The notes below the pieces were generated by a model. That model was not told the DNA's origin, did not search any database, and saw nothing but the letters and a program-made list of their open reading frames with translations. Shown here one piece after another: positions 55,737 through 59,076 of a stretch of DNA of 64,000 nucleotides (position 1 is the stretch's first letter; each line of letters starts with the position of its first letter). The stretch is taken from positions 1 through 64,000 of the forward strand of contig JAQXCD010000036.1 in assembly GCA_029252045.1 (NCBI GenBank), read 5' to 3'. The stretch comes from Sulfitobacter sp. GTDB taxonomy: Bacteria > Pseudomonadota > Alphaproteobacteria > Rhodobacterales > Rhodobacteraceae. The translations under genes and the position numbers were made by a program.

Positions 55737-56831
55737 CTAGCCGACGTGGAACAATGTATTGAACAGTTTGGGGTCCAGACTTGCCTGAGCAAACGTTGGC
55801 CCCTCCGTTAGCACACTCACTGCGTCATGGCTGTGAAGGCTTTCTTGATGGCTGGCAATAACGCGGAAATCGGAAATCCGCGCATCTGCCAACAGCTGCT
55901 CGCAGAACAGGCGCGCAGCATCCTCGACAAAAATCGGGTTTGCGGCGTTCAGCTCGGCAAATGCCTGCTCGTCTTCACGTTTGACCATCACTTGCGTCTC
56001 TGTGGGGACTGCGCGGCGGCACGCTTCGATCAGGTCTTCGAACCACAGGCAATCGGCCCCCTGCTCCAACAGGACGGACACCCGTGCGACCGAGCGTTGG
56101 GAATGCGGCGTTGCCAGCTGGTTGCGCGTGGCGCGTGCATGCTCTGACAACTCCAGAGAGCAGGGGCAGGTGCTGGAATAGACGTAATCGAGGTGGATGA
56201 TCCGTTGGCGCACACCCGCATGCTCCACCAGTTCAAGCGCCAGATCGTAATACTGATACCCTTCCAGACCCGACCGCAGACTGGAGATTTTCATCGGAAA
56301 GGAAAACCGCATCTGGATACGCGCGTCAAAGCTCTCCAGATCGGTGATGTAGTCGTCCAGTGCCGCCTCGACGACCTTAAAGCTGAACGTGCTTTCTGCG
56401 TGTTTATAGAAACTGCGCATGATGCGGGACATGTTGATGCCCTTTTTGTCCGCCTCAAGGCTTACAGTTCCTGTCACAGATGTCTCGAGCGTCAGCGGGT
56501 CGTTGTCGCGGGTTTCAAACCGGACAGGCAGGCGAAAGTTCGAGATGCCCACATGCTGGATTTTCTGCTTTGCACCTTTGATCAGGCTAGAGGGACCGTT
56601 TTGCAGGTCCGGCAGGCTGTCCTTATACTCCGGCTCAATCTCGAAATCGGCTGGATACTCGCGCTTGAACAGCGGATAGGCTTCGCCTCCCGCCAGCATT
56701 TTGGACACAGCAGGGTCCAGCGTGGCAATCTCTGCCGCATCGGCATTCGCAGCCCATGCGCGCAGTGTCTCCAGCGCCTCTTCGGCTGCGATACGGTCAG
56801 GTGTTGGCATAATCGGCGTTGCAATATTCAT
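55737..56831 (-). CDS. folE2: GTP cyclohydrolase FolE2 (type IB)
   Basis: KQKIQHVGISNFRLPVRFETRDN...VSLEADKKGINMSRIMRSFY...YSSTCPCSLELSEHARATRNQLATPHSQRSVARVSV. Confidence 0.95.
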   Translation of the reverse strand: MNIATPIMPTPDRIAAEEALETLRAWAANADAAEIATLDPAVSKMLAGGEAYPLFKREYPADFEIEPEYKDSLPDLQNGPSSLIKGAKQKIQHVGISNFRLPVRFETRDNDPLTLETSVTGTVSLEADKKGINMSRIMRSFYKHAESTFSFKVVEAALDDYITDLESFDARIQMRFSFPMKISSLRSGLEGYQYYDLALELVEHAGVRQRIIHLDYVYSSTCPCSLELSEHARATRNQLATPHSQRSVARVSVLLEQGADCLWFEDLIEACRRAVPTETQVMVKREDEQAFAELNAANPIFVEDAARLFCEQLLADARISDFRVIASHQESLHSHDAVSVLTEGPTFAQASLDPKLFNTLFHVG

Positions 56832-56988
56832 CAAACAGGCCCCCATCAGTCAGAAACCTTATGTAGGCGTCCGGAAACAGATTGCCAAAAATTTCTTTCA
56901 GGCGCAGGGGGAATAACGCCACCCTACCCTTAATTTGCGCCACACGGCCCTAGTTTGTGCTGCAACGCCCTATTTACGCGACCCAAAT

Positions 56989-58173
56989 TTATTTCGCGCC
57001 ATCCAGCGCTTGCAGCACATCCGCAATCAGATCGGCGCTGTCTTCCAGACCAATGCTGACACGCACCAATCCCTGCGTGATGCCGAGAGAGGCCTTTTTC
57101 GCATCGGGCAGACGTTGGTGTGTTGTAGTGGCCGGATGGGTCAGGATGGTTTTTGCATCCCCCAGATTGTTGGAGATGATCCCGATTTGTAGGGCATTCA
57201 GGAATTTGAACGCGCCTTCCTTGCCACCTTTGACATCCAGTGCCAGCACCGTGCCGCCCGCGCCCATCTGGCGCTGCACCAGCGCGTGCTGGGGGTGCGC
57301 CGCAAGGCCGGGATAGATCACAGCATTCAGTACCGGGTGCCCCTCAACCGCCTGTGCCACGGCCTGAGCGGAAGCCGCCTGTGCGCGCACGCGCAGGCCC
57401 ATTGTCTCTAATCCTTTGAGCATGACCCAAGCCGTAAACGGCGACATCGAACCGCCAGTATGCTTCATATAGGGCTCAACCGTTTTGCGGATGATCTCTT
57501 TGCTACCAAGGATCACACCGCCAAGGGTACGCCCCTGCCCGTCAATATGTTTGGTCGCGGAATAGATCACAACATCTGCACCCTGCGCAAAGGCGCGGGA
57601 ATAAACAGGGGTGGCAAAGACGTTATCAATCAGCACCTTGGCACCTTTGGCATGGGCCAGTTTACAAACGCCTTCAATATCAATCACTTCCAGCGTCGGG
57701 TTCGAGATCGACTCGAAAAAAATCACTTTGGTGTCGTCGCGGATGGCGGCCTGCCACTGTGCCAGATCGGTGCCGTCGACAAAGGTCACCTCAACACCAA
57801 AGCGGCCCAGAATATCCTCAAGCACATAGAGGCAAGAGCCGAACAGCGCGCGGGCAGAGACCACATGATCCCCCGCTTTCAGCATCGACGTCAGCGCACC
57901 AGAGACTGCCGCCATGCCGGAGGCCGTGGCAAAGGCATCTTCTGCCCCTTCAAGGGCTGCAATCCGCTCCTCGAACATCTTGACGGTCGGGTTGCCGTAG
58001 CGCGCATAGATGAATTCATCCTCGCCGCTTGAAATAAACCGCTGCTCTGCATGCTCGGCGCTGTCATAGACAAAGCCCTGCGTCAGAAAAATCGCTTCGG
58101 AGACCTCGCCGTACTGGCTACGGCGCGTGCCTGCGTGAACTGCTTTGGTGGATGGTTTCCAGTCGTTGCTCAT
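56989..58173 (-). CDS. metZ: O-succinylhomoserine sulfhydrylase
   Basis: MSNDWKPSTKAVHAGTRRSQYGEVSEAIFLTQGFVYDSAEHAEQRF...IYSATKHIDGQGRTLGGVI (PLP lysine). An in-frame ATG exists upstream at 58254. Confidence 0.93.
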   Translation of the reverse strand: MSNDWKPSTKAVHAGTRRSQYGEVSEAIFLTQGFVYDSAEHAEQRFISSGEDEFIYARYGNPTVKMFEERIAALEGAEDAFATASGMAAVSGALTSMLKAGDHVVSARALFGSCLYVLEDILGRFGVEVTFVDGTDLAQWQAAIRDDTKVIFFESISNPTLEVIDIEGVCKLAHAKGAKVLIDNVFATPVYSRAFAQGADVVIYSATKHIDGQGRTLGGVILGSKEIIRKTVEPYMKHTGGSMSPFTAWVMLKGLETMGLRVRAQAASAQAVAQAVEGHPVLNAVIYPGLAAHPQHALVQRQMGAGGTVLALDVKGGKEGAFKFLNALQIGIISNNLGDAKTILTHPATTTHQRLPDAKKASLGITQGLVRVSIGLEDSADLIADVLQALDGAK

Positions 58174-58212
58174 CTCAAATATCCTCTGCGCACCTGTCAA
58201 AGGGTCAGGCAC

Positions 58213-58247
58213 AAAAAAAACCCCAAACGCGGTCAAGCGAAAGGGGG
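58213..58247 (-). terminator. Intrinsic terminator/attenuator in the metZ leader
   Basis: Minus strand GCCCCCTTTCGCTTGACCGCGTTTGGGGTTTTTTTT: CCCC/GGGG and CGC/GCG pairing with internal loop, followed by U8. Confidence 0.65.
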
Positions 58248-58259
58248 CTTTCATCCTGA

Positions 58260-58328
58260 CCTTTTAGCGGAATATTTTCAACACTTTGCCTTCTATCGAT
58301 ATCAACATTGATCGAAAGCGAAGTGTTT
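58260..58328 (-). ncRNA. Candidate SAM-II/SAM-V-like riboswitch in the metZ leader
   Basis: Minus strand AAACACUUCGCUUUCGAUCAAUGUUGAUAUCGAUAGAAGGCAAAGUGUUGAAAAUAUUCCGCUAAAAGG: P1 AACACUU/AAGUGUU, possible pseudoknot UUUC/GAAA, terminal GCUAAAAGG next to an ATG. The canonical UUGCA motif is not seen. Confidence 0.5.
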
Positions 58329-58458
58329 TGTGGCCCGCAATCCGGTAACAAATCGCCACGTTTTTGGATTAGGTCATCAGCGCCTCTGCGTCAAGCGCGC
58401 CCTCGCCGCAGGTGCATCCTGTGAAAGCGGGGCCAAACGCCTTGTTTTGCGGCAGACG

Positions 58459-59076
58459 CTATGCGTCGGGCTTCTCCGCCTCTTCTTCAATCACAAAAGG
58501 TTGAAGCCGGGTGAACTGCCACATCAGGAAGCCCATCAGTGCCAGTGGAAAGCCGAACGTCTCGATTTTGACCCACGCGTCCGTGGACATGGTGCGCCAG
58601 ACAAATTCGTTCGCGACAGCCAGCCCCACAAAGGCAGCCGTCAGCCGTTTGGTCAAAATCATCCAGCCCTCGTGCTGCATGGGCATCATATCCGCCATCA
58701 CAAATTCGAGCCACGAACGCCCCCGCGCCAGCCCCACCGCAAGGATCAGCGCCAGAAGGCCGTAGACAATGCTGGTCTTCATCTTGAAGAAGCGCTCATC
58801 ATTGAACCACGCTGTCAGCCCCCCGAAAAAGATCACCATAAAAGCCGTGAACATCTGCATCCGGCTCAGCTTGCCTGTCAGCGCCCACAGGACGGCCATG
58901 GCCACCAACAGGATCGGGACAAACACCAGCGTGGCCACAATAAATCCGGAATATTCGGTCCCGCCCAGAGTGAAGACATCCTCCTGGATCCGGGTGTAGA
59001 GCACAAAAAACGCCAGCGTCGGGCCCAGTTCCAGCACTTGTTTCAGGATGGGGTTTATCTCGCGGGTGTCCGCCAT
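58459..59076 (-). CDS. Inner membrane-spanning protein YciB / septation protein A family
   Basis: NPILKQVLELGPTLAFFVLYTR...MQMFTAFMVIFFGGLTAWFNDERFFKMKTSIVYGLLALIL...TKRLTAAFVGLAVANEFVWRTMSTDAWVKIETFGFP. Confidence 0.92.
   Translation of the reverse strand: MADTREINPILKQVLELGPTLAFFVLYTRIQEDVFTLGGTEYSGFIVATLVFVPILLVAMAVLWALTGKLSRMQMFTAFMVIFFGGLTAWFNDERFFKMKTSIVYGLLALILAVGLARGRSWLEFVMADMMPMQHEGWMILTKRLTAAFVGLAVANEFVWRTMSTDAWVKIETFGFPLALMGFLMWQFTRLQPFVIEEEAEKPDA

Follow-up and report, generated by a model that had tools for sequence, protein, structure and literature searches.

The window, by which we mean the whole 64,000-nucleotide stretch of Sulfitobacter sp. DNA analyzed here, carries metZ on its minus strand behind a structured leader, the parts of which are collected in Table 1. 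Read on that strand from 58394 to 58171, the order is promoter, P1 5' strand, the loop GAUUUGUUACCGGAUUGCGG, P1 3' strand, AA and a 48-nt hairpin, followed by GAAAAUAUUCC, GCUAAAAGGU, the antiterminator/terminator region, eight U residues and metZ at 58173. Homologues of metZ begin at the same place, and a putative promoter of the form TTGACC-N17-TAATCC occupies the same position in relatives. The next gene on the strand (55737-56846, 142 nt after metZ) is presumably folE2, encoding a GTP cyclohydrolase; cotranscription with metZ, which would place it under the riboswitch described below, is possible.

Table 1. Features of metZ and its leader in the window
Feature	Position	Strand	Basis or remark
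Putative promoter: -35 TTGACG 58394-58389, 17-nt spacer, -10 TAATCC 58371-58366	58366..58394	-	Read in sequence
P1 5' strand GUGGC	58355..58359	-	Pairs with GCCAC; RF00521 and R1 matches
Central loop GAUUUGUUACCGGAUUGCGG	58335..58354	-	Near-invariant in relatives; nucleotides match 2QWY SAM site
L1 GAUUUG	58354-58349	-	Part of central loop
P2a 5' strand ACC	58346-58344	-	Part of central loop
P2b 5' strand UUGCG	58340-58336	-	Part of central loop
P1 3' strand GCCAC	58330..58334	-	Pairs with GUGGC; RF00521 and R1 matches
Inserted 48-nt hairpin, between P1 and L3	58280..58327	-	-16.9 kcal/mol; covarying hairpins there in relatives
Insert basal stem AACACUU/AAGUGUU	58327-58321/58286-58280	-	
Insert second stem GCUUUC/GAAGGC	58319-58314/58293-58288	-	
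L3 loop GAAAAUAUUCC, 11 nt	58269..58279	-	Alignment with L025 and L024
P2 3' strand GCUAAAAGGU	58259..58268	-	Second RF00521 match; R1 match
Antiterminator GGUCAGG/CUUGACC and UGAAAG/CUUUCG, 13 bp	58231..58261	-	MFE fold of 58275-58215; conserved in genus
Intrinsic terminator GAAAGCCCC...GGGGUUUUUUUU, U8 tail 58220-58213	58213..58252	-	Fold
Likely Shine-Dalgarno of metZ, AGAGG	58187-58183	-	
metZ (O-succinylhomoserine sulfhydrylase)	56989..58173	-	ORF; start 58173 (MSNDWKPSTK...)

At a permissive threshold, cmscan of 57900-58700 returned the Rfam SAM-II model (RF00521, SAM_alpha) twice, at 26.8 bits (E 7.6e-4) on the 5' half of the element and weakly, at 13.7 bits (E 2.6), on the 3' half, the matches being partial because the hairpin splits the element. 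The gathering cut-off of 36 bits, which is a search threshold and not a biological feature, is not reached, and nothing is called in the region at that cut-off; the SAM-V and SAM/SAH models gave no match there down to E = 10. A model built from ten short-hairpin Sulfitobacter leaders, with the window left out (R1), recovers the complete element (58361-58258, 55.7 bits, E 8.6e-13) and also detects inserts in other genera.

The core that defines the class is present. P1 encloses GAUUU and UUGC, and by inspection UUGCG is complementary to CGC(U)AA and ACC to GGU, giving a P2 pseudoknot in which GC(U)AA pairs with UUGC (P2b) and GGU with ACC (P2a). In the solved SAM-II structure, the SAM site is formed by L1 running along the P2b major groove, with the triples G8-C23-G42, U11-U21-A45 and U12-U20-A46 (2QWY; PMC3764141); U11, U12, U20, U21, C23, G42, A45 and A46 all have counterparts in the window by manual mapping. 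The A-rich L3, equal in length to the canonical UUAAAUAUUCC, follows the hairpin and is predicted to pack on P1, as adenines A33 and A35-A37 do in the P1 minor groove of SAM-II (PMC12434664). By position the element would control a methionine/SAM gene, with metZ starting 85 nt past P2, as it does in relatives, and SAM-II ahead of metY/metZ is already known in Rhodobacterales (PMC4239095). Counting against the assignment, a global fold without pseudoknots favors other pairings in the 5' half of the leader. P1 has only 5 bp, with a C-A mismatch in place of the sixth pair of most canonical relatives, and L3 does not follow P1 directly. Because the 48-nt hairpin separates the two, the element is a structural variant of SAM-II. 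We put at about 93% the probability that the leader of metZ is a SAM-II riboswitch in which an H-type pseudoknot is joined to an antiterminator/terminator and this hairpin lies between the P1 3' strand and L3. Within that reading, the core, the insert with its covariation and recurrence among relatives, the gene context and the competing hairpins are observed, and we infer that SAM binds, that transcription terminates and whatever effect the insert may have.

The initial annotation quoted a leader sequence that is indeed found on the minus strand, and its divergent SAM-II with an inserted hairpin was right as to class and gene. It erred in assigning P1, the pseudoknot and the loop, since reading the leader only from the hairpin onward left out the 5' half of the aptamer. 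P1, the ligand-binding loop and the 5' strands of the pseudoknot occupy 58359-58330, just upstream of the reported interval, which takes in only the last base of the real P1 (58359-58355/58334-58330). The 7-bp AACACUU/AAGUGUU stem taken for P1 is the basal stem of the insert, and the hairpin of about 20 nt described in the loop exists as part of one 48-nt hairpin that includes this "P1". UUGC, said to have been replaced (UUGCA by AGGCA), is intact as UUGCG in P2b, and the proposed UUUC/GAAA pseudoknot finds no support in relatives, where the conserved core stretches are GAUUU, ACC, UUGC and GCUAAAAGG. The AUG at 58254, read as the metZ start, lies inside an arm of the antiterminator, and GCUAAAAGG, thought to overlap the metZ Shine-Dalgarno, belongs to the P2 3' strand leading into that antiterminator.

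It is extremely improbable that a SAM-V-like or new aptamer is built on that P1 and pseudoknot. Such a model would accommodate the stable stem and the likeness of GCUAAAAGG to the 3' end of SAM-II-type pseudoknots, but AACACUU/AAGUGUU is missing from the nearest relatives with otherwise the same leaders, the entire 5' half of a SAM-II sits directly upstream, and GCUAAAAGG does not adjoin the metZ start. Comparison with relatives, proposed as the check on covariation of P1 and the pseudoknot, disposed of the P1 as drawn, and the real P1 survived it. SAM-V and SAM/SAH are likewise H-type pseudoknot SAM sensors of marine and Rhodobacterales bacteria (PMC6061858, PMC7367207, PMC4239095), but neither family has a match here down to E = 10, where SAM_alpha is returned instead, and for Rhodobacterales the only reported location of SAM/SAH is ahead of metK (PMC4239095). 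The presence of the SAM-II core nucleotides speaks against a new aptamer.

Hairpins at this site are widespread in Sulfitobacter. RF00521 matches in all 62 species searched, above the cut-off in 42 and below it in 20, and the element precedes metZ in those whose leaders were read. An L3 hairpin is present in 19 of the 20 leaders scoring below the cut-off (the remaining genome is G050), and the core is nearly identical in weak-scoring and canonical leaders. The stretch from CCAC to GCUAAAAGG measures 12 nt in canonical leaders (GUUAAACAAUCU and similar), 23-25 nt in 17 species, where it folds into a small hairpin with some 6 bp, 61 nt in the window and 111 nt in the genome G010.

Beyond the genus, one pattern scan of GTDB genomes found 57 insert-bearing stretches in about 25 Rhodobacterales genera, including, besides Sulfitobacter, Tropicibacter, Pacificibacter, Tateyamaria, Maritimibacter, Mameliella, Puniceibacterium, Cognatishimia, Pelagimonas, Histidinibacterium and Roseovarius; this is a lower bound, since the scan was confined to L3 of about 17-77 nt and one core sequence. 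In a single sample covering 297 genera (298 genomes), inserts were read in about 12 genomes. Only rough frequencies can be given outside Sulfitobacter, as the canonical controls (40 leaders of other genera) were drawn from stronger RF00521 hits and extraction dropped several rows, namely contig-end hits and leaders with divergent core. Of the 150 loci that were read, a set with some duplicates, 146 have the element directly upstream of metZ. L3 is 12-13 nt long in canonical elements and 22-121 nt in inserted ones; none of 14-21 nt occurred among these 150 loci, and the spans of the R1 matches, as listed for 295 genomes, agree with this gap. Inserted elements keep the 3' half of L3, with A at -5 (equated with A37 by manual mapping to 2QWY) in 99% and CC or CU before GCUAAA in 97%. 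In the window all 11 nt of L3 remain after the hairpin; in the short-hairpin class mostly 6-9 nt do. Such hairpins have arisen repeatedly at exactly this spot between P1 and L3 in related bacteria.

The inserts are structured, and their pairing is maintained. The AACACUU...AAGUGUU hairpin of the window is more stable than expected by chance (-16.9 kcal/mol, z = -4.05), none of 200 dinucleotide shuffles folding as well. In 66 of 67 distinct inserts, the first stem starts 0-3 nt past P1 and closes 5-13 nt short of GCUAAA. The arms of an insert pair with each other at a mean of -9.06 kcal/mol, as against -5.44 when arms are swapped between inserts (z -13, 0 of 5,000 permutations). In a 47-row alignment (A3), all six pairs of the insert helix are altered on both sides, 93.9% of the helix cells are paired, and shifting partners by 1-3 columns lowers whole-structure pairing from 93.5% to 37-50%; A3 was fitted to the structure and is biased in its favor, whereas the arm-swap test is independent of it. 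The 48-nt insert of the window sits in the insert columns of A3 and contributes nothing to these helix counts. Its individual stems are supported by energy and little covariation, because only G010 (111 nt), the one near relative of this hairpin, and a look-alike in G269 are comparable. One insert, in L061 (G157), with an L3 of 120 nt, is the only one whose minimum-energy fold lacks a single enclosing stem. Placed on the published SAM-II secondary structure, the inserts would lie at the 5' end of L3 and the open end of P1, remote from the pocket, and the SAM pocket is probably spared by the insert.

Downstream of the pseudoknot, two hairpins compete. GAAAGCCCC pairs with GGGGUUUUU in the terminator (-15.8 kcal/mol, z -3.06) and is otherwise engaged in the antiterminator; both hairpins are conserved in Sulfitobacter, and some of the changes in them are compensatory. 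For example, L007 has GAAAC/GUUUC in place of GAAAG/CUUUC, and in the terminator L034 and others have CUCC/GGAG in place of CCCC/GGGG. Because the GGU of P2a also begins the antiterminator strand GGUCAGG, SAM binding should favor termination. At high SAM, the ligand would stabilize P2, P2a would sequester the GGU that opens the 13-bp antiterminator, and the terminator with its eight-U tail would form ahead of metZ and shut off its transcription; at low SAM, GGUCAGG/CUUGACC pairing would break the terminator and allow metZ to be transcribed. Termination has likewise been predicted for the metZ SAM-II of S. meliloti, where terminated RNA goes up at high SAM (PMC9373788). With an 11-nt A-rich L3 retained, the insert should leave the pocket and the packing of L3 on P1 undisturbed, and its likeliest effect would be none, or a modest kinetic one through its own folding and the later arrival of the P2 3' strand.

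The intact state of these parts bears on whether the insertion has broken the switch, leaving metZ unregulated or constantly terminated. Absence of the insert from close relatives and loss of the outermost P1 pair in the window would suit such decay, which we nonetheless consider very unlikely, given that the pocket nucleotides, both P2 strands, the antiterminator and the terminator are all intact in the window, that inserts retain the 3' half of L3, and that no unstructured long insert was seen among the 67 distinct ones.

A tree built by a quick method from 121 metZ proteins requires at least 16 changes in the presence of the insert, 10 of them forced by well-supported branches, though it cannot separate gain from loss. 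The window falls in a starred clade of five rows together with G010, which has a long insert, and three leaders with none, which points to a recent change of state; L025 and L027, the nearest relatives, lack the hairpin. Fifteen nucleotides of the window insert (58294-58280) are identical in L070 (G269, another genus; GCAAAGUGUUGAAAA / GCAAAGTGTTGAAAA), although the inserts bearing this foot are otherwise unlike (61 nt in the window, 120 nt in G269), and the foot of the G010 insert, ACAUUU/AAAUGU, is related. A pattern scan for the basal stem across the family (397 genomes, 396 genera) turned up the window and G269 only. From these sequence likenesses, a common source or exchange of insert feet among the window, G269 and G010 is possible.

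Origin as a mobile repeat was considered and rejected, the insert being single copy in its own genome and having no full-length match in 60 Sulfitobacter genomes. Its best outside match, 19 nt in a conserved gene reading as ftsH, was discounted because it is within chance for a search of that size. Within 58325-58305, 16-19 nt of the 5' arm, around CACTTCGCTTTCGATCAAT, recur in L206, L207 and L208; this recurrence, antisense to the ftsH-like gene of other Sulfitobacter, is probably chance.

Two further observations concern metZ itself. The metZ proteins of short-hairpin Sulfitobacter (L034, L038, L039, L044, L045, L081, L082, L095, L098, L100, L107, L108, L115 and L120) are about 70% identical to that of the window and form a supported clade of their own, which lies far from other Sulfitobacter metZ and among other genera. 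This placement suggests a joint replacement of metZ and its riboswitch through horizontal transfer. In a metagenome-assembled genome labelled Muricauda (Bacteroidota; L087, NHBR02000045.1), metZ and its leader are nearly identical to those of Sulfitobacter G020, and this bin is probably mislabelled or contaminated.

Whether the insert does more than occupy space is a separate matter, compatible with the reading as SAM-II with a hairpin. The hairpin could be a second functional input, selected in itself, as a site for a protein, RNA or nuclease or as a pausing or timing element, and we regard this as unlikely, though worth keeping in mind. Preservation of pairing through compensatory change and the recurrent switching between presence and absence on the metZ tree speak for such an input, and the insert must alter folding time because it always lies ahead of the P2 3' strand. 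However, inserts differ from clade to clade in sequence, in length (22-121 nt) and in their loops, which suits a tolerated spacer stem more than a specific binding site, and near relatives manage without one. It is similarly doubtful that the third stem between P1 and L3, facultative and gained many times, shifts SAM affinity or co-transcriptional kinetics or recruits a factor, and so marks a functional subclass; if it did, close species would operate the same metZ switch at different set-points.

Returning to the structural variant itself, the window shares with described SAM-II (RF00521; Corbino et al. 2005, PMC1273637; 2QWY) P1, the L1 GAUUU, UUGC, GCUAAA..GG, the P2 pseudoknot, an A-rich L3, a downstream terminator and the place upstream of metZ/metY in Alphaproteobacteria (PMC4239095), and differs by the 48-nt hairpin between P1 and L3, where relatives have an L3 of 22-121 nt, and by its score below the Rfam cut-off. 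Embedding a hairpin in the simple SAM-II pseudoknot gives a three-stem pseudoknot topology, as in the HLout-type preQ1-II riboswitch, which also has an extra stem-loop embedded in its pseudoknot (PMC11625349, PMC11262651). The likeness is one of topology and not of kinship, as ligand, core and hosts differ, and the extra stem is constant in preQ1-II but facultative in SAM-II. Tolerance of stem-loop insertions is a known general property of riboswitches (PMC2258182). Our literature search found no account of a stem insertion in SAM-II L3, although an earlier consensus drawing might show one, and the facultative L3 stem is apparently the undescribed part of this finding.

The insert explains the low score of the window, since 17 of 18 other hairpin-bearing elements, from many genera, also miss the cut-off, the one called scoring 37.6 bits. 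Together with the 19 Sulfitobacter cases, these 18 loci indicate that the current Rfam model hides the variant. As natural variants, the inserted elements reveal evolution repeatedly adding a stem between P1 and L3 with the core left untouched. The packing of L3 into the minor groove of P1 has been described as essential for SAM-II and, in simulations, as the rate-limiting folding step (PMC12434664), and matched natural pairs, such as L025 without an insert and the window with 48 nt, make the role of L3 directly testable; the P1/L3 junction also offers a ready site for grafting reporter or crystallization hairpins. In about a third of Sulfitobacter species the switch is missed by a standard Rfam search, and annotation and regulon surveys that rely on the Rfam cut-off would therefore lack it.
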